This document shows, one piece after another, positions 6,101 to 22,145 of a stretch of 22,145 bases of DNA. This stretch comes from a virus: the IMG/VR virus record IMGVR_UViG_3300025687_000367, positions 1-22,145 of that record. The stretch is one strand, 5' to 3'. Under the pieces are notes generated by a model. That model worked only from the letters and a program-made list of their open reading frames with translations, did not search any database and was not told the origin of the DNA. The position numbers were made by a program, and so were the translations under genes. Every line of letters begins with the position of its first letter. The first letter of the stretch is position 1.

Positions 6101-7599
6101 TCAATGCCATCGCATATCTTGATAGCATCAATAGTGGATTTACCGGTCGACCTGTATACGACCCCAGTGATAATGGACTTAGGTTAAATGCAGAGTTGCA
6201 GATAACTTCACAAATAAAAGATAAAATGGTCTATTCAATACCGGTTGACGAGGTTGTTAGGGATGTTGATTGTTTTGAAGACTTATATAGCGATTTTGAG
6301 AAAAGAAGAAAAGAGAATATTTATTCGGTTCAACTACAAAATGTCATAGAAAGATACGATGCAATTGTGGATGGTACGATTATAATGCCAAACAGTCCAG
6401 AAACTGAAGCATCAATTAATAATTTGAGGTCTGAGATAGAGGACTATGAAGTTCTAAACCAAGGGTTTGGTAGACCTGGAGATGAACTTTATAGACCGGC
6501 AGGTCAATACACTAATGAGATTGAAACAAGACTTGCTCATATTGACTTACTTGAAGCGATTAGCACCAATGAAGAACTGGCAAGATTAACAAGAGAGAGG
6601 GAGAGACTTGAATTTATAATCAATGTTACCGGGCAACTGTTCACTTCTCCTCTCGGTGCTGGTTACAACACACAAGTCACTCCCATAAAGAGGGATTTTG
6701 TTAGATATGAATTGTTTAACAAATACAAGGAAGCATTAGAGTTTGAACTTCTTTCAATCGAAAGAGACGAAACGAACAAGAGAAGAGTTATCAAGTCATC
6801 CGATGATAATGATTATATGAAACCACATAGGGTTATGTTTGATTTCTTGTTTCCGATGGATAGATATGCTTCTTTGCACTTCCTGCAAAATGTAGAAGTG
6901 TTTGATGCTGATAACGGACCACAAGGAATCTTTGCGGCAACAAAATTGTTTATCATTCAAAATATGCTCATATACGATGGACTAGGAGATACGAAGAAGG
7001 ATGGTCCGCTTGCACCAGGTTCAGTCGATAATACTAAAAGTGTTATGTCAACAAGTGTAGGCGGTGATTTACCATCTGCTAGTGAAATACTGGTTATGAT
7101 TGCTAAAGCAATTGCTTCTGCCGCAGCAGATGCTGCCGCAGCAGCGGTAAGAGAACTAGCAAACACAGTAGACCCAGGTTATAATGATATGAGGAAGGGA
7201 TACAAGAAAGACCCTTGCAGTATGAAGTATGGTCTTGTGGAAGGACTTGTTGGAAAGAGGAACATATCCGAGTACAGCGGAGACCTAAAAAACGGATTTG
7301 GAACTAGAAATGGATGTAAGCAATATGTGCCAGTGACTCAGTTCCCTGTTGATTTACTGGAGTCTACTCTAGAATTAGATGCGGCAGGTGTAGCAAAAGC
7401 AACAAAGCATCTCGTCGGAACTATCAGGAATGAAAGTTGGAGATATGGTTATCCATTTACACCAATGGGTGGATATGCTCTTACTGTGAGAGAGAACAAG
7501 GGTGAGAGACATAGTAAACTTAAAAAAGATAATTCCTGTGAGGATGGTTGTGAGACAAAGGAACTAGTTACTCCTGAAGGACAGTGCGAGGACAAATAA
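130..7599 (+). CDS. Giant virion/tail structural protein, 2489 aa, with peptidoglycan-binding-like N-terminus
   Basis: The open frame runs without interruption from the ATG at 130 to a TAA at 7597-7599. Residues about 26-112 follow the pattern of a PG_binding_1 fold: a VEILKLYLGI helix, GTFDTQLQARLRQWQ, then a second G-x-x-G-D-x-T-F-R segment near 100-110. The rest matches no enzyme I recognise. Visible parts are an Ala/Lys/Gln-rich helical stretch (about 352-440), a Cys-containing block leading into a proline-rich LPVLPDIPTFDP segment (about 748-800), a likely coiled coil (about 1774-1833), an aromatic block with FDFLFPMDRYASLHFLQNV (about 2231-2285), an alanine-rich helix (about 2318-2344) and a Cys-bearing tail. 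There is no signal peptide. The next gene, gp25, starts one base after the stop, so a tail or baseplate structural role is likely. The start is set by its 3-base distance from the upstream stop, because no good ribosome-binding site is present. The CDS call is certain; the function is inferred. Confidence 0.9.
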   Translation: MAKYTFKHSRLYDGQLYQEVFEFNTPQSPGDEGPEVEILKLYLGIDSIPGETHGTFDTQLQARLRQWQSEYFDDIMAEMPEEQIPEGEARFIANQFTEQGELGDLTFRAMMRKGFASAAKQYLESEHYLLVRKDDVNALFGIRGFPTGNDEVQKPPTIQGNFIEYKYITKYTTRDFQQSSMVLENKEVVRTMFRKAVLEVFDFYNKPKTWNISGAPRPDLPEALNGLYSNAEHLRVEYEKILKTVRRIEETDTFRENQNFTFTVTEQTLQQQIDQSTVEIDVLFGQSMNPGASPQFASIKEISPPGLRPSATYNLVIQVRRDLFEAIEGGQIDLLGRTGGTFDVTNPDTYRQAAKAYGDAKEKAQELWNKAGRVGSILNNPSQVNDQVDKFAKGQARKAAKAAKNLGNNLWDQARTGQGGLSDAERQARAEEATRRASYQPNYGVLEVKLNEFRDILSTVTNKMEEYHSDVETFKEENSKPRENTSRFEKTYNPIIPDINPRDEARKLREVLAGLEEFFQVNGYQFGAGPSDDSKVKINFEPIMQEVFGPSEQTDKSLNPNLDNVDVNPTQTGFMAEIGYKITNITLIDKDGNEDLLTAGVSIFDETRGKRPFIYPTTMGYLSRLDKIEEDVLENPCDDLEEGNPALVFFAKWHYPQPSFNFNKKAASGINIDASITVQSEVDGETKARTVRNIPELKSAAILTAAEEFAEQRALLSDNINAIKESTLFEKRGKVIQTGDVYPEFGKIPCDIEEMWNQFLNQWKMELIMCDLRKCIPQLPAFNIKFDWKLPVLPDIPTFDPMHFVLPQLRISINDIILSFICKFVKNILDTIRKPDCTDLIRFGLAGFAKLQEMAEDDPFANAQERASTFEKAVDTINTMGISGPALDRDSENVLEAVSLALTPTELCDLLQGQATDDVLGIVLRTIQSLTSNLKDYLKTIDQVEKFFTTLGTVVDPFICDRIRELNDIVIAQELCRNDEDLRKLLQDAGATDEQIRSELDALDQKRQLLNDLSKQGDFSSLLPGLSPEEMAKAGLPGPYSNSFQDKMVKLAISSILTNVKSYFDVEMGAFPNKLITENLILIQPGEPGFNGLDYARFLHYSYQLDKISRNPEAKAIKLVGLRLTQFAEPTEAYGLGRPVSPQIILEELGVEEQYRPLVRIFPIDSSGPDMKPDEFAEAVQTYVVGYIEKYGRVHYSVSQNLKNILDSDISTIVRKNPSLKDGYREFNVRLLTTKLEEQPFDVTGISPQSVGTSIGFTELPFSDSNIKDCYRFAYDNPFTNEIVSRNYYSDLPQQYIDMRSDDLDILSDKDRAKLLRPAGFAFYLIQKYTELANGNTGRTTFQTYADSDSNIIPKLQGYLEPVSLDTLREQIFENAESGAERLGAALVYAILGPLVIAQQESVQSVSLYESVVDSINYQISDYTTKSKYFMVENVFEMEESVTSEYRVSRKNGSACYVKNKKMFDFEKLVDGFVKKFREVASKPKHDPSSRDFNEKGPFEEAMIEGLFKLYIDFYCLEIMLKGLFMLSVTGAKDIFKSEMVVDYITDGIVNELGGSLIGANTTAQFEDIVKSITNQDDVKSAIRSMVLKNLDLEEMVNYIEEIFEPKYSSFKERFYNELAENIKEVPSTTDYPTITTIVPRELTIDEYSQNIDDVLDNYTNTRRASSVSEDYAGYRDVLVAPKLPSLYDRFKFEGYSDELIEKKINSGHFWVEKFYRIKDYGTFRRIYNDIERFTRDEPSIGRMVRIDGEYQNYISSKDLERLLFGTELSSDSDRYYQLIEQNEEKRKEVEQLYIDLRDKMLQISNEDDISTRLSLTTEAFEIQEKINNLQDGEGYISGVTFTDTRAGAFNVASNISTARRNRVPVNDRDRTISMLDFDSVLDKQQELYEHIRDNLQVGYRLMFGHKVDRQEDSFSINGEGASQTSTINPEQIFRDLTIDDGTGEIGLSNNTTLFTSKRAFVGHVDKEPLTEASSTAESRESLNSDSAFYLNAIAYLDSINSGFTGRPVYDPSDNGLRLNAELQITSQIKDKMVYSIPVDEVVRDVDCFEDLYSDFEKRRKENIYSVQLQNVIERYDAIVDGTIIMPNSPETEASINNLRSEIEDYEVLNQGFGRPGDELYRPAGQYTNEIETRLAHIDLLEAISTNEELARLTRERERLEFIINVTGQLFTSPLGAGYNTQVTPIKRDFVRYELFNKYKEALEFELLSIERDETNKRRVIKSSDDNDYMKPHRVMFDFLFPMDRYASLHFLQNVEVFDADNGPQGIFAATKLFIIQNMLIYDGLGDTKKDGPLAPGSVDNTKSVMSTSVGGDLPSASEILVMIAKAIASAAADAAAAAVRELANTVDPGYNDMRKGYKKDPCSMKYGLVEGLVGKRNISEYSGDLKNGFGTRNGCKQYVPVTQFPVDLLESTLELDAAGVAKATKHLVGTIRNESWRYGYPFTPMGGYALTVRENKGERHSKLKKDNSCEDGCETKELVTPEGQCEDK
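7588..7592 (+). promoter_or_regulatory. Ribosome-binding site of the gp25-like gene
   Basis: GAGGA lies 8 bases before the ATG at 7601. It sits inside the last codons of the preceding 2489-residue gene, so the two genes are closely packed but gp25 can initiate on its own. Confidence 0.75.
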
Positions 7600-8013: not shown

Positions 8014-9801
8014 ATGGCAAAAAAGAAAATACCTATTTCATATACCAATAGAGACTTCAACTCCATAAAAGCAGCACTGGTAGAACATGCCAGGAGATAT
8101 TATCCAGATTCTTACAAAGATTTTAACGAAGCATCGTTTGGTTCGTTGATGTTGGACACTGTTTCGTATGTTGGAGATGTTTTATCCTTCTATTTGGACT
8201 ATCAGGCAAATGAAAGTTTCTTGGAAACTGCAATAGAAAAAGAAAATATAATCAATTTATCAAGAAATATGGGGTATCGGTATAGTGATGCCATCTCTGC
8301 ATACGGTGAATGCGATTTCTTTGTCACTATCCCAGCAAACTCTGCGGCACCAGACTTAACATATGCACCAGTTTTGAAGGCGGGAGCAGAAGTCACAAGC
8401 ACTTCTGGTGGTAAATATACATTGATAGAGGATGTAGACTTTTCAGACCCAAACAATCTTGTTGTTGTATCGAGTGTCGATGATGCCACGGGTGCCCCTA
8501 CTTTTTTTGCAGTTAAGGCAACTGGTCAAATAAAGTCTGGGTATGTAGAGGAAAGATTTATAGAAGTTGGCGAGTTCAAAAGATTCCAGAAAGTTACAGT
8601 TGAGGCAGAAAATATTTCTGAGGTTGTAAGTGTGGAGGATTCTGAAGGACATCAATATTATGAAGTGGAGCACTTGTCTCAAGATGTAATCTATGTGAAT
8701 GTTTCTAATAGAAACCAGGACAAGCATAGAGTCAAGAACATTCTTAAACCACTATCGGTACCAAGAAGGTATAGAACTAATTTTCTACCAGGTGCTGTCG
8801 AACTACAATTTGGGCAAGGAAGTGATGAAGAAATATTGTCAGGTTCTTTCTTAGACCCTTCGAGTGTTGTGATGAGGCAGTTTGGTAAGGAACATGTGTC
8901 TGATACTTATCTTGACCCAACAAATTTCACAAGAACGGAAAAGATGGGTATTTCTCCAGCAAATACAACTTTGTCAGTCAGAATCAGAAGAGATGATATA
9001 GAGAATGTCAATGCTGCTGCAAATTCGATTCTTACTGTACAGTCAGCAGAACTGCAATTTGATAATGAAAATTCACTGGTTGCAACGAAGGTTGCAACAG
9101 TTAGACAATCAATCGAGTGCTCAAACGAAAATCCAGTAGTTGGTGACCTGAGTTTACCAGATGAAGAAGAGATTAAAGTTAGAGCGATGAATTCTTTCTC
9201 TGCTCAGAATAGAGCAGTGACGATGCAAGACTATGTAACTATGGCATATGCAATGCCAGGAAGATTTGGTGCATTAAAAAGAGTCAGAGTAGAGGTTGAT
9301 AAAGACTCGTTTAAAAGAAACATAAATATGTTTGTTATTTCAGAAGATGTTGACGGCAAGTTTGTTGCCCCAAGCATCACACTTAAAAATAATTTAAGAA
9401 CTTGGATAACAAATTATAAGATGATGGGCGATACATTTGATATCATTGATGCAAAGATAGTCAATCTTGGAATTGACTACACTGTTGTTATAGCAGAAAA
9501 TGTATCAAAAGCAGAGGTGCTTGCACAATGCGATAGGGAACTTCAAGAGTTATTTAGCATTCATCCTGAAATTGGAGAAGCACTCACAATAAACGATGTA
9601 TACAAGACTCTTAACAGACTTGATTCTGTTGTTGATGTAACTGATGTGGCAGTCAGGTCACTCAGTGGTGGGAACTATTCTTCTTTGAACTATTCAATAC
9701 AGGAAAACTTGAGTTTGGATGGTAGAGTTCTAGTCATACCTTCAGACCATGTGTATGAAATAAAGTTCCCTAATTCTGATATTAGAGGAACCGCACTATG
9801 A
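8014..9801 (+). CDS. gp6: Baseplate wedge protein gp6, baseplate-J family
   Basis: The 595-residue protein starts with the ISYTNRDFNSIKAALVEHA block (residues 8-26), followed by FNEASFGSLMLDTVSYVGDV (37-56) and LSFYLDYQANESFLETA (57-73). This is the characteristic N-terminus of T4 gp6-type proteins in large phages. A beta-rich middle (about 100-350) leads to the baseplate-J core around IKVRAMNSFSAQNRAVTMQDYV (387-408), where Q-N-R-A-V-T and the following D-Y are family hallmarks. An alpha/beta C-terminal part (about 480-550) follows. T4 gp6 is about 660 aa, so this is a slightly short but complete member. gp6 dimerises to form the inner ring that holds the wedges around the hub. The gene follows gp25, its structural partner, and its stop overlaps the next start by four bases (ATGA). 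Confidence 0.95.
   Translation: MAKKKIPISYTNRDFNSIKAALVEHARRYYPDSYKDFNEASFGSLMLDTVSYVGDVLSFYLDYQANESFLETAIEKENIINLSRNMGYRYSDAISAYGECDFFVTIPANSAAPDLTYAPVLKAGAEVTSTSGGKYTLIEDVDFSDPNNLVVVSSVDDATGAPTFFAVKATGQIKSGYVEERFIEVGEFKRFQKVTVEAENISEVVSVEDSEGHQYYEVEHLSQDVIYVNVSNRNQDKHRVKNILKPLSVPRRYRTNFLPGAVELQFGQGSDEEILSGSFLDPSSVVMRQFGKEHVSDTYLDPTNFTRTEKMGISPANTTLSVRIRRDDIENVNAAANSILTVQSAELQFDNENSLVATKVATVRQSIECSNENPVVGDLSLPDEEEIKVRAMNSFSAQNRAVTMQDYVTMAYAMPGRFGALKRVRVEVDKDSFKRNINMFVISEDVDGKFVAPSITLKNNLRTWITNYKMMGDTFDIIDAKIVNLGIDYTVVIAENVSKAEVLAQCDRELQELFSIHPEIGEALTINDVYKTLNRLDSVVDVTDVAVRSLSGGNYSSLNYSIQENLSLDGRVLVIPSDHVYEIKFPNSDIRGTAL
9785..9789 (+). promoter_or_regulatory. Ribosome-binding site inside the end of gp6
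   Basis: GAGGA lies 8 bases before the ATG at 9798, within the last codons of gp6. Together with the ATGA overlap at 9798-9801 it supports coupled translation of gp6 and the next gene. Confidence 0.7.
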
Positions 9802-11735
9802 GTATAAAAAGATTTTATGCAAATGCAGATAATACAATTACAAATGCTTTTGCTGCAAACTTGACCACGAGAGGTACAGGGTCTAATATGGGTGCTTCCG
9901 ACATCTTGGAAGTATTTTCAATTTACGGGCAAGCATCTAGCACATCGCTTGAAAAAGCGAGAGCAATGGTTCAATTTGATGTTTCGAAAATTAAAGCAGC
10001 GAGAGATGCAGGAACAATAGCACAGTCTGGAAGTGCAAAGTTTTTTCTTAGACTGTTCAATGCAGAGCACGGTCAAACTCTTCCAAAGAACTACACCTTG
10101 TCTGTACTCCCTATTTCACAATCTTGGAGTGAGGGTGCAGGATTGGATATGGAGGAGTATTCTGACCTCGATATTTCAAACTGGATTTTTGCCAGCGACA
10201 CTAAGGTTGCAGACATAACTGACATAAAGTTTGTTTCAACTACTCCTTCTGATTATGATGGAAAGTATTTTATTCTTCAGGTTGTCAACGACGACAAAAC
10301 AAAAACAAGACTAAATCTCTGGTTTGATGATGACGGTGCTGGCACTGCACCAAATGTCGATGGAACAGAGGTGGAAGTAGAACTCGACCAAGCAGCGGCA
10401 AACACTGTTAACAATTTTGCAAAACAAGTTAAAACAGCAGTAGATGCCTTAGCGAGCACAAACCTGTCTGCTTCTATATCTGAGGACGATACAAGCGATT
10501 CTACTGGTGCCACAGTAAGGTTGACGAATACAGTCGTTGGTGGAACTTCCGGTTCATTTATTCCGACAGTCCACAATGATGCTAATGTATTTACTTTGAC
10601 TGTTGCTCAAAGGGGTGGACCTACAAGATGGAGTGCTTCAGGTGGTGATTATCACGAAGTCACTTATGTGCCAGGTACGAATCTTCCGAACTACACTTAC
10701 ACAATCAACGATGGTACAGAAGATGTAGAGTTAAACATTACTGCTCTCGTTGAGGAATGGATTGCGGCAGAGTCAACAGTTGACCCAGACAGAGAAAACT
10801 ACGGTGTAATGATTAAATTATCCGACCAGTACGAAGATGGAACAGAGAAGCGGTCCTTTTATACAAAGAAGTTCTTTGCTAGGGGAACTGAGTTTTTCTA
10901 CAAGAGACCTTGCATCGAGGCGAGATTCGACGACCACATTGGAGACGACAGGGAAAACTTTTTTAAGAGTTCATCTCTTGCAACTGGACCTGAAAATCTG
11001 AACACACTTTATATGTACAACTATACGAGAAGAGGGTTGAGCAATATGCCAACTCTCAAGACGGCACAGGACGGTTCTGACCAGACAACTGGGGAAGCAT
11101 TGATGAAGGTGAGTTTATATTCAGAACTTGACAACAATGCAGGTCCACTGACTTTGCCAATCGGTGGTGGTGTTACAAGCAATAATGCTACATTTGCTTT
11201 CGCTTATTTACACAAGACAGGTATCTATAGTGCATCACTAGCATTTACCGGTTCTCAAACAAAGGTTTATGATGTATGGTCTGACTTGAGTGACAACCAG
11301 TTGTTTACTGGTTCTGCAATTACAGTCAAGGAACACAAACCACTTCCGTTTAGTAATGCGGACGAAGAGTATGTTGTTTCTATCACAAATCTGAAACCAT
11401 ATTATAGAACAAAAGACAAACCAAGTTTAAGACTTAATATACGAAAAAAAGATTACCAACCGAATATTTATACAGTAGCGAGTAACAAATTACAAAACGA
11501 AGTATTGTATAATGTATACTACAGAGCATATAGAGTAATCGACGGAGAGGAGGTAATATCATACGGTTCAGGAAGTGTCCCCCACACGAAGATGTCTTAT
11601 GACTCAAGTGGAAGTTACTTCAAGTTAGATATGTCCCTTTTCGAACCTGGTTACATGTATGCACTGGAAATATCAACTGACTCTTACGAGCAAAACATTG
11701 TGAACAAGAGTGAGTTTAAATTTAGAGTTGAGTAG
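9798..11735 (+). CDS. Baseplate-associated structural protein with DNRLRE/CBM96-like domain, 645 aa
   Basis: Residues 1-133 and about 276-375 together read as one DNRLRE/CBM96-type beta-sandwich. It opens with RFYANADNTITNAFAANLTT, then the ARAMVQFDVSKI strand (55-66), SQSWSEGAGLDM (108-119), VELNITALVEEWI (310-322) and NYGVMIKL (334-341). The order of 'alv-x-FD-x-S', 'W-x-EG' and 'x-VT-x-LV-x-W' is the family pattern. A roughly 140-residue module (about 134-275) interrupts it. The C-terminal 250 residues are beta-rich with Tyr-rich strands (for example LYNVYYRAYRVI near 570) and look like an Ig-like or fibre-type region. There is no signal peptide. The gene overlaps gp6 by four bases and precedes a giant structural gene, so a baseplate or tail-fibre-base role is likely, perhaps binding surface glycans. 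The DNRLRE match is from memory of the family; the function is inference. Confidence 0.88.
   Translation: MSIKRFYANADNTITNAFAANLTTRGTGSNMGASDILEVFSIYGQASSTSLEKARAMVQFDVSKIKAARDAGTIAQSGSAKFFLRLFNAEHGQTLPKNYTLSVLPISQSWSEGAGLDMEEYSDLDISNWIFASDTKVADITDIKFVSTTPSDYDGKYFILQVVNDDKTKTRLNLWFDDDGAGTAPNVDGTEVEVELDQAAANTVNNFAKQVKTAVDALASTNLSASISEDDTSDSTGATVRLTNTVVGGTSGSFIPTVHNDANVFTLTVAQRGGPTRWSASGGDYHEVTYVPGTNLPNYTYTINDGTEDVELNITALVEEWIAAESTVDPDRENYGVMIKLSDQYEDGTEKRSFYTKKFFARGTEFFYKRPCIEARFDDHIGDDRENFFKSSSLATGPENLNTLYMYNYTRRGLSNMPTLKTAQDGSDQTTGEALMKVSLYSELDNNAGPLTLPIGGGVTSNNATFAFAYLHKTGIYSASLAFTGSQTKVYDVWSDLSDNQLFTGSAITVKEHKPLPFSNADEEYVVSITNLKPYYRTKDKPSLRLNIRKKDYQPNIYTVASNKLQNEVLYNVYYRAYRVIDGEEVISYGSGSVPHTKMSYDSSGSYFKLDMSLFEPGYMYALEISTDSYEQNIVNKSEFKFRVE
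10197..10622 (+). other. Inserted beta-rich module within the DNRLRE-like domain
   Basis: Residues about 134-275 lie between the WIFAS strand and the RWSASGGDYHE segment, which I would expect to be nearly adjacent. The module begins with VADITDIKFVSTTP, continues through KYFILQVVNDD and RLNLWFDDDGAG, has an alanine-rich helix (NNFAKQVKTAVDALAS, about 205-220) and ends with a VRLTNTVVGGTSG turn (about 240-252). This strand, strand, helix, strand and Gly-rich turn order resembles the modules at 15806-16561 of the downstream gene. The reading frame continues unbroken across both edges, so it is a domain insertion and not a gene disruption. Confidence 0.6.
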
Positions 11736-11737
11736 AT

Positions 11738-14700
11738 ATGAGTCTGAAAGGTTTATTTGGTAAAGATAAGAAAACAAAAAACATTGGTTCTCTGATTAAT
11801 TTTCAAGATAAACTTGAAGATGTAGAGTCCGTTGGTTATATTGACCAATTCTTGAAAGATAGAAAGAGGTTCAAGACACACACCAACTTCTTTACTGCAT
11901 CAAACTTTGCAGCATACGGTTCACTAGAAGAATACTACAAGGCAGGTATCGACAGAATCGTAAACACTTATCCGTATGACGGTTCACTAAAAGAAAGACT
12001 AGCATGGTTCAATGAATCAAACGGATTTGACCTTCACCTTTTCGAGAACGAATACCCAAGAACAAATGGATATATCAAACTTTCAGATAATAGACCTGGT
12101 GGTGATGGTTGGGGTACCGTTACATCAACATCTGGAGCATACGGAAACCCAGAGACAAAAGAATATATTTACATTAAGGGTGGACCAAACATCGGGAATG
12201 TTTATAATACCGCTTCTTATCAGACATCGAATCTTGAAATTAACGGAAGGAACGGTAATACTGTAGAATTCTGGTTGAAGAAGTCTGAATTTGTTAGTTC
12301 CAAAACAGCAAGAGAAGTAATTCTAGATATTACAACAACTGGTTCATATCAGGGACAATCTGCATATGGTCGCTTGACAGTAGAACTTGACAGTTCAAAC
12401 TCTTCTGCCTCTCCTTTTCTCATTACCTATCAATCTGGTTCAACTGGATTTAAGGAAGCGAGAATAGGTACTACACATCTTTATACCAGTGCCTCTGATG
12501 ATTCTTGGCACCACTATGCGATATCATTTAAAAATCAGGACAACCAAGTAAAGGTTGGTCTGTATATAGACGGCGAACTTAATAAATCGGTCGTTACGGG
12601 AAGTGCCATTGGTTCCTTGAACACTGCACTTATTGGTAGTATTGGTTCATTGGTTGCAGGCAAAGACCCGGAACTTGTAACAAGAACAGCATCAGATGAT
12701 TTTATCCCCGGTCTCGGTTATGGTAAGTTGTCTGGTTCTTTGGATGAATTTAGATATTGGAAAAAAGAAAGAACTGCAAAAGACATCGGTCGTTTCTGGT
12801 TTACACAGATTGGGGCAGGTTCGAATACGGACCCCGCAAACTCTCCTCTTGGATTTTACTACAAGTTTAACGAAGGTGAGGTTGGAGTAACCTCGATTGA
12901 CAAGACCGTATTAGACTACGGTGGACGAGTTTCGAATGGTGTTTGGGTAGGTTATGCAGGATACGGAAGATACAACAACTCAGCAATGGTTGAGGCATCT
13001 GCATCTATCGCCGAGTTTAAAGACCCAATCATTTATCAGAATCACCCACTAGTATCTAATTTTAGACAAGATGCAATTGAAAGAGGGTATGCTTACGATT
13101 TAGAAAACTCTTCTGGAATGTATCACTCGTTTCCTGCTTGGATTGTTGACGAAGACGGCGAGGGAGCAGAAGACCTCAAGAAGATGACACAGGTTGTTGC
13201 GAGTTATTTTGATAGTCTTTTCTTGCAGATAAAAGATATGGGCGAGTTAAGACACTTAAAGTATGAAGATTTCGACAAGAAACCACACCCATTCAACAAC
13301 ATTAAACTTCAATCACTAGGTCTTGTAACTCCAGAACTTTTTATGGATGCAAGTAATCTAAACACTCTCGTTAATAGAGATGAAGATAAAGAATTCAGAC
13401 AAGATACATCTGATGTAAAGAACTTTATATACAACAACATTCATAACAATCTTGAAGCAATCTTCAAATCAAAGGGAACAGATAAGGCATTTAGAAATCT
13501 TTTTAGGTGTTTTGGTATTGATAGCGAACTTATAAAGATTAACCTATACTCAACCGACTCATCGTATCCGGTAGAGACCAGTTATGAAAATTCGACAGTA
13601 AAAACAAAGTATGTGAATTTTGCAGATTCTATTAACAAGAATGCTTCTGTTATTCAGTCTATCGATGGGTTAATTGGAGACTACAGGGCAGCAGATGCCC
13701 GTGGTTTTATGAAGGGAACAAATGGTTTAGTCAGTGATGACGATGGTGTATCTATTGGTCTAACGACCGAAGCACAAATCTTTTTTCCAAAGGTTTATCC
13801 AGTATCACACCCATTTCACTTTGCAACACCACTCAGTTCTAGTGTTTTTGGTTGTCACAATGTTGCTGACGAAAATGACGACACAGATTTGAGTTGGACA
13901 CTGGAAGGTGCAGACTACTCTAACTTCCAGTTATATGTTGTAAAAGAAAAGAGGCACTCAAGAACTGCTAAGTTTGTCTTAAAGAGTAGAGGTGACATCT
14001 TTGAGGCAATGGAAACAGACTATATCATTGACCTCTATGACTCAAATAGGTGGAATGTTGCAGTAAGACTAGCATCAGATACACCTGCTGGTTCGAATGT
14101 CACAGGTTCTGGCAACTCATATAGGTTTGAACTTTACGGTGCCAACACCGTTGCCGACGAGATTCAAGATAGTTTTGAAGTTTCAAGAACAATATCTGCA
14201 ACGAATGCAAAGAATTTTATCAAGAACTCAAGAAGATTCTATGTTGGGGCAGAGAGAGAAGACTTCGCAGGAACCCTACTGAATGAATCAGATGTAAAGG
14301 TTGCGAACTTTAGAGTTTGGAGTACAGAACTTTCCAATGAAGAAATAAACTCACATGCTATTGACCCACGGTCTTACGGTGTTGATGAACCGTCTAGAAT
14401 GAGTTTTCCACTCGCTGATATTGGTAACACTCAGTTGTCGAAGATTGACTTGCTTGCAATTAACTGGAACTTTTCTAGTTTAACAGGTTCGAACAGCAAT
14501 GGGGATATGTGGATAAACGATGTATCTTCAGGTTCTCTTGATGACGACTTGACATACGGAAAGTTATCTCCAGCAATCAGAAGACTTCACCCAGGTAAGG
14601 GAATTAATTTTGCTTCTGCAACCACTTCAAGTGTTGATGTGGAATATGACCAAGCAACAAGACTGCAAACATTTGAAAATGTCAAAGCATCTGATATGGT

Positions 14701-17700
14701 TCAGGTTGTACTGAATGACGATTTGACATTTACAAGAGAGACGAAACCAACAGATTACTTCTTTTCTTTTGAAAAGTCTATGTATGCTGCAATTACAGAC
14801 GAGATGTTAAACTTTTTTGCAGGCATTAATGAGTTCAGCAACTTAATCGGTGCACCCGTAGAAAGATACAGACAGAACTACAAAGGTCTCAGTAAGTTGA
14901 GGCAGATTTTCTTCTCAAGAATAGAGAATAACCCAGACATCGAAAGGTACACAGAGTACTACAAGTGGTTGGACTCTTCATTGTCAGTTATGATTGACCA
15001 GTTGGTGCCAGCATCGGTTGCTGCATCAGAAGACATCAGAAATGTAATTGAAAGTCACATCCTTGAAAGAAGCAAGTATTTTAATAAATTCCCAACAATG
15101 GATATGAAGGTGGTCGACCCCGTTGGGCAAATTCGTGGTATCAACGAACTATCTTACGATTGGCAACATGGTCACTCTCCCATCTCTGGAGACGAGAACG
15201 ATAACTGCTTATGGCAAAAAGAAAGAGCACAAAGGGCAACTGACAAGTCTGTTTCCAGCGAGATAGATTCAGACAGAGAAACAATCAGAAGAATCTCAGT
15301 AACTTCTGTGTCTGGTTCAACTTATGCAACGAGAAGATTGTCTAGACCATACCGTCTAACAGTTGAAGACCAAAGACATGCTAAGGGTGGCGACAACACT
15401 TTTGGAAACAAAAAGAAAAGACTTTATACTGGTATCTCAACAGCACACGGAATGTCACACATTGCCGTTACTGGTTCTGAACTAGCGACTTCACCTTGTA
15501 ATGATATTCAGAACCCAAGCAAGAAAAAGAGATTCCATGCCACGGCAGATATTGCTTTTACATCTAAAGACTTGGATATTAATGATATTGCTCCATTTAC
15601 AATCTACAGTAGTTCTGTAGATGCAGTATCAGATTACAAAGCGGAATTATTCAGCAACTTCAAGCAAGGTGTTGAGATTACAAACCTTCATTCTGATGAA
15701 TATGGCGACGACAGGGAAGTAACTCTTCAATCTCCATTCACAGAGCGATGGGTCGGCGGCAATGCTCATAGGCATCAAGATGTCGTGCAAGAGCAGGCAG
15801 TAAAAGCAACTGCTACAATACAAATTTCAGATGCTAGTACCGAAAACATTGGTCATGATTCTAGAATCACAATCACGAGTACTCAGGGTTTAACTAAAAC
15901 ATACATCTTTAAACAAGATGTCGGGTACACAAAACAGTTCACACTGACATCAGGCGGACAAGTTTTGTTGCCCGCTGCGGAATATAGTGGTTCTGCTGTT
16001 ATAGATTTGGCAGCAGCGATAAATGGTTCAACTGGTCACAATGGTCAAATTGCCGCATCTGTTGATGGCACAACTTTGACACTGGAACAAACACTGTATG
16101 GACCAGAAGGCAACTTGCCTATTACTTACAACTTTACTAATCCTGGTGCTCAATGTACGGTCTCAGTTAACAGTGCCCCAGTTAATGGCGAAACCTTCAC
16201 AATAACAGATGAGTCGAGCACTACACAGACATTTGTTGTCGACACATCAGTCACAACACAAGATGGCACCAGGGATGGTAGTAATAGAGTTATCATAGGG
16301 ACAAGCGGGTTGTCTACTGTTCAGGAGTATGGTGAAGCAATCGTTAATGCAATAAACGGAGCAAGACAGAAGGGGTATCTTTCAGAAATATTTGCTGCAA
16401 GAAAAACGACAGCAGGACCTTGGGAGATGTTGTTTATACATTCTAATACAGGGACCGTCACAAATTTTGCTGTTGTAGAGTCCGTCTCATGGATAACAGC
16501 AGGTACAGAGCAGGGTAGGACACTGCCAGCAACATTGACTATTGGAAATTTCGAAGGCGGCAAAAACGGTTTCTCATCAAGAGTAGAGGCATTTAAGTTA
16601 CTGGCACAAGGAGAGAAGTTATATATTCTTCCTCCGAATGCAACTGGCATTGATGCGAGTAACCTACCTGTCATCGACCAGAACATTCAGGGTGCTCAAG
16701 TACTAAGAGAAGAATTGGCAAAGAGACCGGTGAATATCAAAAACATTGCTACAACAACTGGAAGTGTTTCCCTTGGAAACTACAATCACATTTATGATGT
16801 AGTTCAATATACTTCCGAGGACCAAAGAAAAGATTTTCTTGTTGATAACTTGGAACAAGTCACTTCTTCTAACTCAACTGCAATACCAGGTGTTCAAGAG
16901 TTTGGTAAGTTTGAAAGACCGGTCAGGAAGTCTGTTTTTAAGGCGAGATTTGCCTCTCCAGGCGGCACAGAGGTGGCAGGTGATAGTAGAGGTGGGCACA
17001 GTCTAGACAGGGCGACAAATCAGTATTCTGTGTACAATTCTATGAATTATAGAAACCTTTCGGTTCGTGGTCCTCTTGATTTCTTAAACAAGATTCCACA
17101 GACTGCAAGTGCTGATAACACAAGTCTTGTGACAAATCACAAGATTAATGCTAACCCAAGATACCGGTATCGACTTGCCGAAGACATTGATTTATCAAGT
17201 GGAGAAGTAGATTTAAATCAAGATAATGTTTTTGTTCAGCATCCGATTCCACAGAATGATTATCAGTATGCTTGGATTACAGCATCTCTTGTTACTGGAA
17301 GGGAACCGGCATCAATCGCAGGACATCTCCACTCGTTTACCCAAGCATCTGTTGGCGATGCAACTGGGTCACTCGCATACGAAAGAACATATGAGTTCTT
17401 AACAGCGAGCAACAGAGAAGGAACAAAGATTATTGATTTTGCTGGTCTTAACACTTACATTGTTGACGATATAGATGCAACAACAAATACTATTTCTAGG
17501 TCTGCTGTTTACAACTTGACCGGCACAATCCACCACAGGCAGGGACCATATGGTCATCCAAGTTGGAAACAGATTAGAGCAGGCGATTCAGCACTTGGAA
17601 GATATTTCAGAAAGAATAATCAATACTCTATTCCTGTGGTTGGGGACCAGATAAGATTTACAACACTTGGAAACTACTCTTGGCCAAATAGCATTGACCA

Positions 17701-20700
17701 TTTGCGAGCAACTTCTGACAGGTCTGTAACAAATTCTAATTATAGATTCACAGACCCGCCAGTTTCATCAAACAGGTTGCCGATTGTTTTCAAGAATTCA
17801 ATACCAACACCGCCTGATGTTTTGGACATATACAAAGAATATTCTGATAATGACTTGTTTACAGTTGTTCCTTTCAGGAAGAGTGTTTCATTCAATAACA
17901 AACTAACAAAGTTTGCAAATGATGACATGACAAAAATTCTTGGCATTGAACCATCTAGGATTCAAGAAAAGGAAGCATTATATACAGACGACCTGAAAGA
18001 GTTTGATTTTGATAGAGTTGGGGCAACCGCAGAGTATTCTATCGAGATATTCCCACAAGAAAAGAATGCTTACTTGGAGAGAACAAGAGAAAGAACTCAA
18101 TACTCAGCAGATGACTTCTGGAAAACAAAGAGAGAAGAAAGAACACAAACAAACGGTGTTAACTCTCAAGGTAACACTATTCCAAACCTTTCTGTTTGGG
18201 CACTTGATGCACACGACAACTTTAGCACAACTGCCCTAAAGAAAACAACTGACAAGTTGGGAACAGATGGTTCTGGTGAGTTGTTTGGTAACTATGCGAT
18301 TTTCCACAACAACTTGACACATCCAAGTGCAAGTGCTTTGTTTGCAAGACCGATACCTTATCAGGCAACTTCAAGTTTGCCAAAACTAAAGTATATCGAT
18401 TTTAGACTTGCCTTTACGATGCACAGAAAAGCACAGTTTGAAAGCAAGTTGGTTATTAATGCGGATATATCAACTGCAACCCAAACAGATTCTCCACATA
18501 TTGTAGATGCTGGTGCTGTGAGGTTTGACATGAACAATGACTCCTACGAAGAAGGAGTTTTTATCGATGTTTCGGACGATATCCATGCCTCTTTTGTTAA
18601 TAACAACTCAGAAGATAGTTCAACATCTAATCCAACTGGTCCAAGGGGATACAATAACCGAACACCCGTCGCAGGTGCATACTTTTATCCAAATACATTG
18701 ATTGGAACTAGAACAGCAGTTGGGTCAATAACAAACCCTCCTGGCTCTGACGATGCAACAAACACACACTACAGATTCTTGGAATTCACAGGGTCTCTAT
18801 CGGACAGACCCCACTTATTCAGGTTTCACTTGAGAACAGGTTTCAATGCAGGCAGTGATGATGCTTTTGGTCTAAGAACCAGTACAAAACCTCTTTATTT
18901 GCAAATGAAGGGAGATACAGTCACAACTTATACAAAAGTTGCAAAGTTTGCTGGGTCTGATTATGTCGGTTCTGAAGATGGTGAATTTCAGTATGTCAAT
19001 GTGTTGGTTACCTCATCCTTTGGTGACAACACTAAATTTAGATTTATATCACCAACTCAAGACAGTGACACAGATGGTCTCTGGTCATTTGCATTTTTGA
19101 CAATTTACGAAGGCAATAATACAGTTAGTGAAATCTTTACGAACGGTAAGTCTTTGGCATCTGTGCCGACCATAACATCATCGGTATCAACATTGTCCAC
19201 GGCATATAGAAATCTACCAACATCAACAAGTTATTTTAGTCCACAGATAGGCATTGAATCAATGGTGTCACTCGGAAAGGTAGATACATATAGAGATGAA
19301 AAAAGCAAAAACTACACGATTGGAGATATATTTACATCAGAAATCGCTTCACCGGATGTTCCGACTGTCGACCATCTGGTAATCCAAAACTCCGACACAC
19401 AAAATATTGCTGCTGTTTATATGAAGGATGATAAATCAGCGAATCACCTTTATGGTTCTCAGTTCTTTAGAACACCAGAACATGCCTCAAGAAACCCATT
19501 TAACTTTGAGAACTACGAAGGTTTTGCAGAGCAGGCAAAGTTATTGGCAAAGGATTATGGTTTGGTTCCAGAGTTTAGAATCAGTGAGCATATAGATTAC
19601 TATGTTAATACTGTTGGTGGAGACGACCCATTCTTTTCTTGTAACGATACATTCTTAAAGATAACTGGTTCAACGACACCGGAAAATAGTTCACAAGATA
19701 CATTCTATGAAGTTTATTCACATTCAGATTTTGTAAAGCACTTCAATGTTGTCGAACAGGAAATGAACAGTGTGAAGGGTGCTTCTGCAACAAAGTTGAA
19801 ACTTGAATGTAAAGCATTTAAGAAATTCCTTCCTTATAAGGGATTCTATCCAGCAGATAGAATGGTTCAACTTGCTGGCGAATTGAGTTCTTCCTATTCG
19901 ACATTTGTGACTGGTGGTCACTGGAGAAATGTCTTAGCACCTTATTATGCTCCTGGTATTGGATTTAATTCAATCAAATCAGGTATTGCGGTTGATTACC
20001 CCGTAATCGAACCACACGAAGATAGACTTTATAATCAGTACGGTGTTATATTTCAATCAGCAAGTCTTGCAATAGATGAAGGTGGAAATGCAGTTCAGGC
20101 AATAACAGGTCGTCCTTGGGTTGCCGGTGAAGGCGGTTCCGGAGCAAGTGCCGCACTATCAAAGAACAGAATTGAAATAGGCGGCGGTTCACAGTGGGCA
20201 GACATCTTGACGGGAAGCAGTTCGCCTGGAGCATCAAGTAAGAGATTGACATTATCACTGTGGATGTATTTGCCAAAACATTTCCCAAGTTTTGGAGTCG
20301 GAGAATTATCTCACTACGGCAATCTAATGCAAAGAGGGTGTATTGCATCATTCGGCAGTGGTCAGGATGAAACGGATTCTGCTTGGAAGACAGGTTTGCA
20401 TTTTGGTTACTATATGTCTAGGTATATTGACACAGATACGGATGTTACCGACGACCCGAACATACCAGGCACAACTGACCGGTCTTCAAACTTTGGAGCG
20501 GACATGATTCCAGGTAATGGCACTGACAATGACCATTTAATAGATAGAACCTATTCGTTATGTTTTACTCTTATGGGCGGAAACGGAAAGGACTTTTTTG
20601 CTTTGTCGACAGAGAAAGGAACAGGAACTATTCACAATTCCAGAGTAAGTCCTGGGTGGAACCACATCATATTGTCTTGTGATTTTGACGGTCTTGGGAC

Positions 20701-22145
20701 GGTCGGAGACGATTTCAGTGGATTTAAAGCACATGTCAACGGGGTAGAATACCAGTCCGTATCGCACCTTACTTCATCAAGTGGATTTGATTTTTCTAGT
20801 GCAGATACCGCAGGTTCTCAGACTGCCGAGATACTTTTAGATGGAAAGAGGAACTGTTTTATTGGAAATCACTTAGGATATGTTAACAGAATTAATGACT
20901 CTTCACCTTCTGACCTAAGACCAAGAACATACGGGTATGATGAACCCGTACTCATTCAAGCGGGTCAAGATAGGACACAAACTCCAGGAGTCAATCAACT
21001 TGTAACCTTTGTTGCTATAGATGGCGGACTTAACAGTAGTGATTACGAGCACTACATGTCTGATTTTCTAAAACCATCAGAAATTATGATGACAGAAATA
21101 ATCATCTTAAATACTTATGATGACCACATGCCAGAAGCACTTTCTGGGTTCCCAAGTGGCAAAAATCCACCGGAGTACGAATATGGCAGGTTGCAAGACA
21201 GCAACGACTTTAAGAGTCAATCGCAATTAGAGTTGATACCTCTCGCAAGCGATATTGGAAATACATATGGTCCAGCAAATCCATATACAACCCTGTCAGC
21301 ATCATTCCATCAAAATATTGTTGGATGGTACCGTCCAGGTAACGATGGTGGGTATGACTTAAGAAGGTCTACAAACGGAAGACATATTTTTAATCATGCA
21401 CAAGACTTGTTTTCTGGAAAGATTCCAAATCACTCATCAAGTGCAGGAACTTACGACACTTATCAGATGCCAAAGGTTTATAACCATCTCACAGGTACAT
21501 TCTACGGATTTACTGAGTGGACAGGTTCTGTTGCAAACGATTTGAAGTTCTCTGACAAATATAGACAGAGATGGAACGGCATAGCGGACATTACAAATCC
21601 TGCTCAATATACTTATATTTATCACTATCCAAGAACTGATGCTAATGGAAGTCTTGGTAGCAAGGCACCATTTAAGACTTGGTATACACATCTTGGAGAG
21701 GATACGACCTGGTTCACAAACACTACAGATTATGTTGAGAAGACTCTTATTGAATCAAATGCCTTCTTGTCAAGTTCTTATACAATTTGTTCTGGAAGTG
21801 TTAGAATTCCATCGTTTATTGTTGGTACAAGGCACAACTTTACAAATGATACTTCAATTCCAAGAATCGGTTCTGCAAGTTATGGAACTTACCACTTCAC
21901 CGGTTCAGGCGAAATCGCAGACGACCCAGTGTATTCACAAGGATGGAGAACAGATTATCAGGGCAACACTGGTGTCAGAAAAGTAAATAGAATTCCTTTC
22001 GAGGCAATCATTGACCCTGCTGTATATACACCAGAGATGAAGGATGATGGAGATGGAGAATCATCAATTGCACTATTTTATGAGGTAGAACCACACCCAA
22101 GTGCAAGTCTTCTTGGTGCATTTAACAGGCAAAGAAAGTATATTG
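11738..22145 (+). CDS. Giant multidomain phage structural protein with three LamG domains (3' partial, at least 3469 aa)
   Basis: Frame 2 is open from the ATG at 11738 to the right edge; I translated it throughout and met no stop. The start lies two bases after the upstream TAG. Domains in order: a conserved N-terminus with NTYPYDGSLKERLAWFNES (76-94); LamG-like domain 1 (about 166-360; SWHHYAISF near 256, GSLDEFRYW near 333); a helical block (about 480-640); LamG-like domain 2 (about 673-875; VANFRVWSTELSNEEI); a helical region (about 1010-1120); two inserted beta modules (1357-1608); VQHPIPQND (1833-1841) and GPYGHPSWKQIR (1936-1947); LPYKGFYPADRMVQL (2698-2712) and APGIGFNSIKSGIAVDYPV (about 2738-2756); LamG-like domain 3 (about 2835-3125); and EPHPSASL (3453-3460) close to the edge. 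LamG domains usually bind glycans. I recall these motif blocks from giant structural proteins of large aquatic phages, but their function is unknown to me. Position after gp6 suggests a peripheral baseplate or fibre component. The C-terminus is not in the window. Confidence 0.92.
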   Translation, partial: MSLKGLFGKDKKTKNIGSLINFQDKLEDVESVGYIDQFLKDRKRFKTHTNFFTASNFAAYGSLEEYYKAGIDRIVNTYPYDGSLKERLAWFNESNGFDLHLFENEYPRTNGYIKLSDNRPGGDGWGTVTSTSGAYGNPETKEYIYIKGGPNIGNVYNTASYQTSNLEINGRNGNTVEFWLKKSEFVSSKTAREVILDITTTGSYQGQSAYGRLTVELDSSNSSASPFLITYQSGSTGFKEARIGTTHLYTSASDDSWHHYAISFKNQDNQVKVGLYIDGELNKSVVTGSAIGSLNTALIGSIGSLVAGKDPELVTRTASDDFIPGLGYGKLSGSLDEFRYWKKERTAKDIGRFWFTQIGAGSNTDPANSPLGFYYKFNEGEVGVTSIDKTVLDYGGRVSNGVWVGYAGYGRYNNSAMVEASASIAEFKDPIIYQNHPLVSNFRQDAIERGYAYDLENSSGMYHSFPAWIVDEDGEGAEDLKKMTQVVASYFDSLFLQIKDMGELRHLKYEDFDKKPHPFNNIKLQSLGLVTPELFMDASNLNTLVNRDEDKEFRQDTSDVKNFIYNNIHNNLEAIFKSKGTDKAFRNLFRCFGIDSELIKINLYSTDSSYPVETSYENSTVKTKYVNFADSINKNASVIQSIDGLIGDYRAADARGFMKGTNGLVSDDDGVSIGLTTEAQIFFPKVYPVSHPFHFATPLSSSVFGCHNVADENDDTDLSWTLEGADYSNFQLYVVKEKRHSRTAKFVLKSRGDIFEAMETDYIIDLYDSNRWNVAVRLASDTPAGSNVTGSGNSYRFELYGANTVADEIQDSFEVSRTISATNAKNFIKNSRRFYVGAEREDFAGTLLNESDVKVANFRVWSTELSNEEINSHAIDPRSYGVDEPSRMSFPLADIGNTQLSKIDLLAINWNFSSLTGSNSNGDMWINDVSSGSLDDDLTYGKLSPAIRRLHPGKGINFASATTSSVDVEYDQATRLQTFENVKASDMVQVVLNDDLTFTRETKPTDYFFSFEKSMYAAITDEMLNFFAGINEFSNLIGAPVERYRQNYKGLSKLRQIFFSRIENNPDIERYTEYYKWLDSSLSVMIDQLVPASVAASEDIRNVIESHILERSKYFNKFPTMDMKVVDPVGQIRGINELSYDWQHGHSPISGDENDNCLWQKERAQRATDKSVSSEIDSDRETIRRISVTSVSGSTYATRRLSRPYRLTVEDQRHAKGGDNTFGNKKKRLYTGISTAHGMSHIAVTGSELATSPCNDIQNPSKKKRFHATADIAFTSKDLDINDIAPFTIYSSSVDAVSDYKAELFSNFKQGVEITNLHSDEYGDDREVTLQSPFTERWVGGNAHRHQDVVQEQAVKATATIQISDASTENIGHDSRITITSTQGLTKTYIFKQDVGYTKQFTLTSGGQVLLPAAEYSGSAVIDLAAAINGSTGHNGQIAASVDGTTLTLEQTLYGPEGNLPITYNFTNPGAQCTVSVNSAPVNGETFTITDESSTTQTFVVDTSVTTQDGTRDGSNRVIIGTSGLSTVQEYGEAIVNAINGARQKGYLSEIFAARKTTAGPWEMLFIHSNTGTVTNFAVVESVSWITAGTEQGRTLPATLTIGNFEGGKNGFSSRVEAFKLLAQGEKLYILPPNATGIDASNLPVIDQNIQGAQVLREELAKRPVNIKNIATTTGSVSLGNYNHIYDVVQYTSEDQRKDFLVDNLEQVTSSNSTAIPGVQEFGKFERPVRKSVFKARFASPGGTEVAGDSRGGHSLDRATNQYSVYNSMNYRNLSVRGPLDFLNKIPQTASADNTSLVTNHKINANPRYRYRLAEDIDLSSGEVDLNQDNVFVQHPIPQNDYQYAWITASLVTGREPASIAGHLHSFTQASVGDATGSLAYERTYEFLTASNREGTKIIDFAGLNTYIVDDIDATTNTISRSAVYNLTGTIHHRQGPYGHPSWKQIRAGDSALGRYFRKNNQYSIPVVGDQIRFTTLGNYSWPNSIDHLRATSDRSVTNSNYRFTDPPVSSNRLPIVFKNSIPTPPDVLDIYKEYSDNDLFTVVPFRKSVSFNNKLTKFANDDMTKILGIEPSRIQEKEALYTDDLKEFDFDRVGATAEYSIEIFPQEKNAYLERTRERTQYSADDFWKTKREERTQTNGVNSQGNTIPNLSVWALDAHDNFSTTALKKTTDKLGTDGSGELFGNYAIFHNNLTHPSASALFARPIPYQATSSLPKLKYIDFRLAFTMHRKAQFESKLVINADISTATQTDSPHIVDAGAVRFDMNNDSYEEGVFIDVSDDIHASFVNNNSEDSSTSNPTGPRGYNNRTPVAGAYFYPNTLIGTRTAVGSITNPPGSDDATNTHYRFLEFTGSLSDRPHLFRFHLRTGFNAGSDDAFGLRTSTKPLYLQMKGDTVTTYTKVAKFAGSDYVGSEDGEFQYVNVLVTSSFGDNTKFRFISPTQDSDTDGLWSFAFLTIYEGNNTVSEIFTNGKSLASVPTITSSVSTLSTAYRNLPTSTSYFSPQIGIESMVSLGKVDTYRDEKSKNYTIGDIFTSEIASPDVPTVDHLVIQNSDTQNIAAVYMKDDKSANHLYGSQFFRTPEHASRNPFNFENYEGFAEQAKLLAKDYGLVPEFRISEHIDYYVNTVGGDDPFFSCNDTFLKITGSTTPENSSQDTFYEVYSHSDFVKHFNVVEQEMNSVKGASATKLKLECKAFKKFLPYKGFYPADRMVQLAGELSSSYSTFVTGGHWRNVLAPYYAPGIGFNSIKSGIAVDYPVIEPHEDRLYNQYGVIFQSASLAIDEGGNAVQAITGRPWVAGEGGSGASAALSKNRIEIGGGSQWADILTGSSSPGASSKRLTLSLWMYLPKHFPSFGVGELSHYGNLMQRGCIASFGSGQDETDSAWKTGLHFGYYMSRYIDTDTDVTDDPNIPGTTDRSSNFGADMIPGNGTDNDHLIDRTYSLCFTLMGGNGKDFFALSTEKGTGTIHNSRVSPGWNHIILSCDFDGLGTVGDDFSGFKAHVNGVEYQSVSHLTSSSGFDFSSADTAGSQTAEILLDGKRNCFIGNHLGYVNRINDSSPSDLRPRTYGYDEPVLIQAGQDRTQTPGVNQLVTFVAIDGGLNSSDYEHYMSDFLKPSEIMMTEIIILNTYDDHMPEALSGFPSGKNPPEYEYGRLQDSNDFKSQSQLELIPLASDIGNTYGPANPYTTLSASFHQNIVGWYRPGNDGGYDLRRSTNGRHIFNHAQDLFSGKIPNHSSSAGTYDTYQMPKVYNHLTGTFYGFTEWTGSVANDLKFSDKYRQRWNGIADITNPAQYTYIYHYPRTDANGSLGSKAPFKTWYTHLGEDTTWFTNTTDYVEKTLIESNAFLSSSYTICSGSVRIPSFIVGTRHNFTNDTSIPRIGSASYGTYHFTGSGEIADDPVYSQGWRTDYQGNTGVRKVNRIPFEAIIDPAVYTPEMKDDGDGESSIALFYEVEPHPSASLLGAFNRQRKYI
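12233..12817 (+). other. LamG-like (concanavalin-A-like) domain 1 of the giant protein
   Basis: Residues about 166-360. The visible hallmarks are an N-terminal NTVEFWLKKS strand, a central SWHHYAISF, a VGLYIDGEL hairpin, and the closing SGSLDEFRYWKKERTAKDI. This is the canonical Laminin_G_3 order. It is the clearest of the three copies. No catalytic residues are suggested, so binding or structure is the likely role. Confidence 0.85.
13754..14362 (+). other. LamG-like domain 2 of the giant protein
   Basis: Residues about 673-875. It contains AQIFFPKV near the start, RWNVAVRLAS (about 771-780), a YRFELYGANT hairpin, FYVGAERE (834-841), and closes with VKVANFRVWSTELSNEEI. It is more divergent than domain 1, but the closing strand and the helix start are typical. 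Confidence 0.7.
15806..16561 (+). other. Two tandem beta-rich modules inserted in the giant protein
   Basis: Module A (residues about 1357-1470) has ITITSTQGLTKTYIF, a VIDLAAAINGS helix, GHNGQIAASVDG and LTLEQTLYGPEGN. Module B (about 1471-1608) has FTITDESSTTQTFVV, the YGEAIVNAINGARQ helix, and a diverged final strand with IHSNTGTVTN. The two share the order strand, T-x-T-x-x-F strand, Ala-rich helix ending in AIN-G, and a Gly-Asn or Thr-Asn turn. They sit between an HRH segment (1344-1346) and KRPVNIKNI (about 1662), which I recall being closer together in related phage proteins. Both are in frame. Their function is unknown; surface decoration is a guess. Confidence 0.6.
20240..21112 (+). 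other. LamG-like domain 3 of the giant protein
   Basis: Residues about 2835-3125. It opens with KRLTLSLWMYLPKHF, has GWNHIILSCDFDG near 2973, FKAHVNGVEYQSV, RNCFIGNH near 3038, and closes with MTEIIILNTYDDHMP. It is longer than domain 1 because of acidic, Gly-rich loops between the strands (for example around 2895-2935). Confidence 0.7.

Follow-up and report, generated by a model that had tools for sequence, protein, structure and literature searches.

A Giant, Probably gp7/gpI-Type Baseplate Wedge Protein from a Marine Far-T4-Like Phage Group

The window, meaning the whole stretch of DNA analysed here, spans all 22,145 bases of its IMG/VR record, and it carries baseplate wedge genes in the order gp25, gp6, a 645-aa gene and a giant gene, an order that recurs in relatives (Table 1). 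The gp6/gpJ-type protein, whose TIGR02243 match falls below the curated cut-off, has full-length homologs in the Flavobacterium phage immuto, the Microcystis phage Mel-JY01 and LR756508. The 645-aa protein found no family match in PHROGs and Pfam scans. Upstream of gp25, positions 130-7599 hold a second very long ORF of 2,489 aa, whose relatives in an iterated search numbered 73 across the retrieved loci, with none in immuto, Mel-JY01, LR756508 or the IMG/VR locus L022.

Table 1. Genes of the wedge cluster and segments of the giant protein, in window coordinates
Feature	Coordinates	Strand	Basis or remark
gp25-type baseplate wedge protein, 128 aa	7601..7987	+	PF04965 E 5e-13; PHROG baseplate wedge
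gp6/gpJ-type baseplate wedge protein, 595 aa	8014..9801	+	phrog_219 E 9e-19; TIGR02243 E 3e-14
645-aa protein, function unassigned, between gp6 and giant gene	9798..11735	+	same-position homologs in L022, immuto, Mel-JY01, LR756508
Giant ORF of 3,469 aa or more, ending beyond the contig, about 4,120 aa expected	11738..22144	+	comparison with L002 and L003
N-terminal helical block, res. 1-151	11738..12190	+	conserved in 99 family ORFs
LamG domain 1, res. 165-365	12230..12832	+	PF13385 E 1e-8; Foldseek LamG/pentraxin
Core block, res. 430-638, helical, gp7/gpI-like	13025..13651	+	101 family ORFs plus compact orthologs
KSKGT motif stretch, res. 571-604	13448..13549	+	aligned with cyanophage gp7, T4 gp7 (res. 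~733-758), P2 gpI
LamG-like domain 2, res. 725-891	13910..14410	+	AF2 model, Foldseek; P 0.0012 against LamG1 in hhalign
Conserved block 'after', res. 903-1149	14444..15184	+	last block common to compact orthologs
Conserved block B, res. 1152-1349	15191..15784	+	family-specific
Variable insertion, res. 1357-1582	15806..16483	+	lowest conservation in the comparison with L007
Conserved block C, res. 1627-1853	16616..17296	+	end of the first gene in split-gene relatives
Conserved block D, res. 1896-2210	17423..18367	+	start of module 2 and, in L010/L011/L018, of the second gene
Variable block E, res. 2211-2570	18368..19447	+	close relatives only
Conserved block F of module 2, res. 2573-2757	19454..20008	+	iterated profiles
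Possible LamG-like domain 3, res. 2804-3054	20147..20899	+	hhalign P 0.003 to LamG1; Pfam none
Blocks G and H, res. 3105-3468	21050..22141	+	profiles of relatives

The giant frame opens with an ATG at 11738 and runs for 3,469 codons without a stop, remaining open at the window edge, exactly as the original prediction had described it. Since the window is the whole record, this edge is the contig end, where assembly stopped, and a search by exact 43-mer for a contig continuing past it found none. The two nearest complete relatives extend beyond the last aligned residue of the window by 652 (L002) and 657 (L003) residues, so a full protein of about 4,120 aa is expected. With a probability of about 1e-100 that 3,469 random codons at the base composition of the window (39% GC) would contain no stop, the frame is not random. 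An assembly error hiding a stop, which the original prediction had named as a possible refutation, is rejected because independent contigs carry complete open homologous frames, including L002 (3,927 aa), L003 (3,958 aa), L023 (5,534 aa), L026 (4,491 aa), L027 (5,104 aa), L028 (4,178 aa) and L017 (3,767 aa). Comparison of the window with L002, L003 and its nearest relative L007 (about 85% identity, itself truncated) revealed synonymous sites near saturation and pN/pS of 0.09-0.76 in every alignable 250-codon tile, so the whole frame is coding, and it is under purifying selection along its length. Frameshifts or in-frame stops do occur in some relatives (L071, L089, L106, L107, L109 and the IMG/VR record G020), as an assembly or frame artefact would predict; against this reading, the frame is intact in most relatives (of 50 complete ORFs, 42 reach at least 2,782 aa), and purifying selection acts along all of it. 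An artefact is thus scarcely credible, and for the window it is effectively refuted.

The family is large. Relatives of the first 654 residues are encoded at 21 IMG/VR loci, the core profile matches at least 486 IMG/VR stretches and gives three matches in bacterial or archaeal bins, and complete single-ORF relatives range from 2,782 aa (L066) to 5,534 aa (L023). Searches of other collections were empty: tblastn of both parts of the giant protein against 50,697 phage records gave no match at 1e-5, tblastn of the C-termini of L003, L011b and L116 against phage records gave none, and PHROGs and Pfam scans of the whole giant protein matched nothing. A single-sequence C-terminal query of IMG/VR was also empty because its patterns were strict, and a profile search against PDB sequences yielded no match for the N-terminal unit and only chance matches for module 2, the C-terminal part of the chain.

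The phage group was assigned through relatives, as the capsid and terminase genes concerned lie on their contigs and not in the window. Genes for a gp23-type capsid and a gp17-type terminase are present in all five long relatives (PF07068 over its cut-off, and phrog_2). The nearest isolates by gp23 include Mel-JY01 and RM378, which places the group among the Far-T4-like phages; the source is a marine phage group of the T4 superfamily. Background on Far-T4 phages is given in PMC4360716 and PMC7198788.

The anatomy of the giant protein was resolved with iterated profiles, which bear out the inserted modules and family-specific conserved blocks first proposed for this baseplate-region protein. 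Most members share a constant order of N, LamG1, hinge, core, LamG2, 'after', B, C, D, F, Ct1, Ct2 and Ct3, with a minimum of about 2,780 aa; Ct1-Ct3, which contain the NWPYDYFSLVELV motif, follow G and H in relatives and would lie past the contig end in the window. Extra length consists of insertions (the variable insertion, E, LamG3, G, H and others) that occur in fewer members or at shifting places, and pieces related to residues 1357-1582 are found at other places in the proteins of other members. Three LamG domains had been predicted, and they now stand at different grades. The first is firmly predicted by the Pfam Laminin_G_3 (PF13385) match of E 1e-8 in a tiled scan and by Foldseek LamG/pentraxin matches of E ~1e-6. 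The second is likely, since its AF2 model resembles LamG-pentraxin folds in Foldseek and hhalign gives P 0.0012, while the third is only possible, with hhalign P 0.003-0.012 and no Pfam match in the tiled scan. In the AF2 model of residues 1-1160, the PDB matches are LamG folds, not gp7; the core has pLDDT of about 45-55, and long helices are placed with low confidence at 477-506 and 550-577.

Compact proteins of 1,142-1,404 aa, corresponding to residues 1-1149 of the giant, occupy its gene position in the same neighbourhood. These orthologs comprise immuto gp109 (YP_010114574.1; 1,265 aa), Mel-JY01 WWT39511.1 (1,336 aa), an LR756508 ORF (1,404 aa) and the L022 protein (1,142 aa). Their HMM E values are 1e-18 to 1e-25, and L022 scores 5e-267 against a profile that includes its own sequence. 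In L022 all segments from N through LamG1, hinge, core and LamG2 to 'after' are retained, while the core is matched in immuto, Mel-JY01 and LR756508, along with part of 'after' in immuto and LR756508. In the compact loci searched, blocks B and C and module 2 went unmatched, and module 2 is absent from the whole records of these phages.

T4 gp7, P2 gpI and TssG of the type VI secretion system (T6SS) are regarded as equivalents that pair with two gp6-type chains as (gp6)2-(gp7)1 (PMC6300606). The giant protein resembles them in its position after gp6/gpJ and in an aligned KG(T/I) motif region, and differs in being several-fold to more than twenty-fold larger, with no threshold-passing match. It lies downstream of gp6/gpJ in the wedge cluster at the position of gp7/gpI with one extra gene, the 645-aa one, intervening, whereas no gene separates gp6 from the gp7 position in T4 and cyanophages. 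No match to T4 gp7, P2 gpI or Pfam/NCBIfam models passed a curated threshold, and similarity is mostly confined to a stretch of 25-75 residues. PF09684 (P2 gpI) and TIGR02242, run on whole relative genomes with P2 itself as positive control, gave sub-threshold matches only (best 14.5 bits). Of the viral-genome searches, 13 produced a match (5 with PF09684 and 8 with TIGR02242), every time inside the giant or compact ORF and in most cases at the KSKGT site. Neither model matched the window protein itself.

Profile comparison by hhalign, by contrast with comparison against single T4, P2 or Mu sequences, which was not significant, proved informative. The core aligned to the P2 gpI profile with P 0.0009-0.004 (other segments at least 0.086) and to the N-termini of cyanophage proteins at the gp7 position with P 2.9e-5 (73.7%) over 74 columns (all 11 other segments at least 0.06); this similarity to gp7/gpI relatives spans a short stretch. 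The cyanophage N-terminus profile in turn aligned to T4 gp7 residues 733-758 (P 0.0013), the same site that cyanophage MED4-213 matches by BLAST (E 0.004). A core profile search in T4, P2, Mu, RM378, LR756511 and XacN1 found none. These links are individually weak, yet they agree on one site, KSKGT. The giant protein is therefore probably a gp7/gpI-type baseplate wedge protein of a marine Far-T4-like phage, a wedge role inferred from gene order and from homology that is weak at the sequence level.

Proteins of comparable size are already known in cultured cyanophages, in the gene directly after gp6: 4,458 aa in MED4-213 (CPMG_00035), 3,048 aa in S-PM2 (p084), 4,225 aa in ACG-2014f, 3,032 aa in S-CAM1 and 6,405 aa in S-RIM50. 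They are annotated as 'baseplate wedge initiator gp7' in S-RIM50 (AMO42876) and 'baseplate wedge initiator' in ACG-2014f, gp8 lies downstream in three of these phages, and the MED4-213 N-terminus has relatives in 470 phage records. The original prediction had set the giant far above T4 gp7 (1,032 aa), which is true, but the comparator was the wrong one: with cyanophage proteins of 3,032-6,405 aa, size alone is precedented, and the giant gene is real and notable nonetheless. The cyanophage proteins share with it the position after gp6 in marine T4-like phages and the KSKGT core, and they lack counterparts of its blocks B, C, D, F and Ct1-3. In the four cyanophage proteins tested, giant-family profiles found nothing convincing except the core and LamG-like pieces of S-RIM50 gp7, where the LamG1 profile matches residues 2322-2391 and 4154-4197 (E 2e-7), which means that a cultured phage, too, has LamG inserted in a giant wedge protein. 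Since the cyanophage expansions show no similarity beyond core and LamG, enlargement was either repeated or has diverged beyond recognition.

Module 2 consists of residues from about 1896 onward plus the missing C-terminus. AF2 folded the module 2 of L066 (1,083 aa) into one cohesive unit with pLDDT 79 and pTM 0.81. Foldseek found no match for this model in the PDB (best E 0.2), while in BFVD it matched seven unnamed viral proteins with E 1e-93 to 1e-24. These marine-virus proteins (A0A1B1IUQ9, A0A516M7I0, A0A0F7LAZ6 and others), which have no described role, apparently represent the module 2 family, already deposited without function. This structurally unmatched module is the most original part of the protein.

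In L010, L011 and L018 the gene is split exactly at the C|D boundary into two adjacent genes; these loci make up a single, well-supported clade that lies within fused members, and at this boundary L011 and L018 have a GGGAGTTAAGAATG start in common, with near-identical flanking sequence. L075 and L078, elsewhere in the tree, are split near the end of block C. Splits at other positions in L071, L089, L106, L107 and L109 may be sequencing errors. Because early branches hold fused members, fusion looks ancestral in the giant family and fission derived, on a tree whose root sits on very long outgroup branches. With three relatives encoding module 2 separately, the suggestion that the chain does the work of several proteins is partly supported, as at least two modules are separable; it falters in that the chain yielded no segment convincingly similar to gp8 or gp10. 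Module 2 segments matched gp8 only with P of at least 0.048, the N block gave one 25-residue gp8 match (P 0.0047), and gp10 gave no profile match. That module 2 is a new fold replacing the T4 outer-wedge proteins gp8-gp11, one chain building most of each wedge, is a doubtful extension of these results; gp7 gigantism would then have arisen independently in Far-T4-like phages and cyanophages.

Read as a wedge protein, the chain could be organised as follows. The N-terminal unit (residues 1-1149) holds the KSKGT core, which in T4 gp7, P2 gpI and T6SS TssG would be part of the wedge heterotrimer with two gp6-type chains, and this core would seat the chain beside gp6 in each of the six wedges. LamG and other modules inserted into or after the core may form outward-facing, lectin-like surfaces that contact host surface glycans, and module 2 (residue 1896 to the C-terminus) may build the outer baseplate or support it. 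At one copy per wedge, six chains of about 450 kDa would add about 2.7 MDa. The length variation of 2,782-5,534 aa would reflect modules gained at variable sites, as expected of a conserved scaffold with evolving host-contact decorations.

Two other readings accept the gene as real and assign the chain differently. It might be a giant receptor-binding fibre or adhesin that merely adjoins the wedge genes, its modules binding and KSKGT acting as a short attachment motif. LamG domains, modular insertions, strong length variation and pN/pS values that are highest in the inserts would all suit such a protein; nevertheless, the core and its flanking blocks are the most conserved part, it is the core to which the gp7/gpI similarity maps, and compact orthologs hold this core at the same post-gp6 position, all of which makes this reading unlikely. 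The chain might otherwise be a polyprotein, cut, for example near C|D, into separate baseplate proteins. C|D is indeed a clean gene boundary in the L010 clade, with the near-identical flanks of L011 and L018, the L075/L078 split falls nearby inside the end of C, and module 2 is predicted to fold independently; however, T4 baseplate wedge proteins are not known to undergo such processing, and cleavage is considered quite improbable.

The gp7/gpI-type assignment gives a likely identity to a common, uncharacterised marine protein family (the 486 or more IMG/VR stretches) by tying it to the gp7 wedge position, and suggests that in marine T4-type phages a wedge protein can accommodate thousands of additional residues. 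With members that run from 1,142 aa in compact form to 5,534 aa, split genes among them, the family can be used to ask how host-contact modules are added to a conserved wedge core and whether separate baseplate proteins give way to fused chains.

Several individual loci deserve mention. CP070664.1 (L123), a WOR-3 MAG described as a bacterial chromosome, carries the N-terminal unit near 589 kb and module 2 near 2.756 Mb, which suggests a chimeric bin or two prophage pieces. Two contigs of 4-5 kb with the giant gene (L121 and L122) were binned as Flavobacteriales and Poseidoniales MAGs, with titles giving a coverage of about 0.1; this binning is probably viral contamination, and the host hints are weak at best. 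G020 (IMGVR_UViG_3300025132_007963) has, at 113709-115817, one in-frame TGA inside module 2 of a giant frame that is otherwise open. In L106 the giant gene, at 8870-19100, is broken into five or more pieces (687, 91, 369, 1186 and 510 aa) that keep the blocks in order, suggesting decay or assembly errors. Additionally, an ORF 3' of the giant gene is conserved (L066 17218-18135 and equivalents; 287-393 aa in the loci used). It was tested as gp8, which was unsupported; over its first ~45 residues it resembles proteins of L022 and Mel-JY01 rather than T4 gp8-gp12. Thirty-six of the 38 post-giant ORFs form one family.
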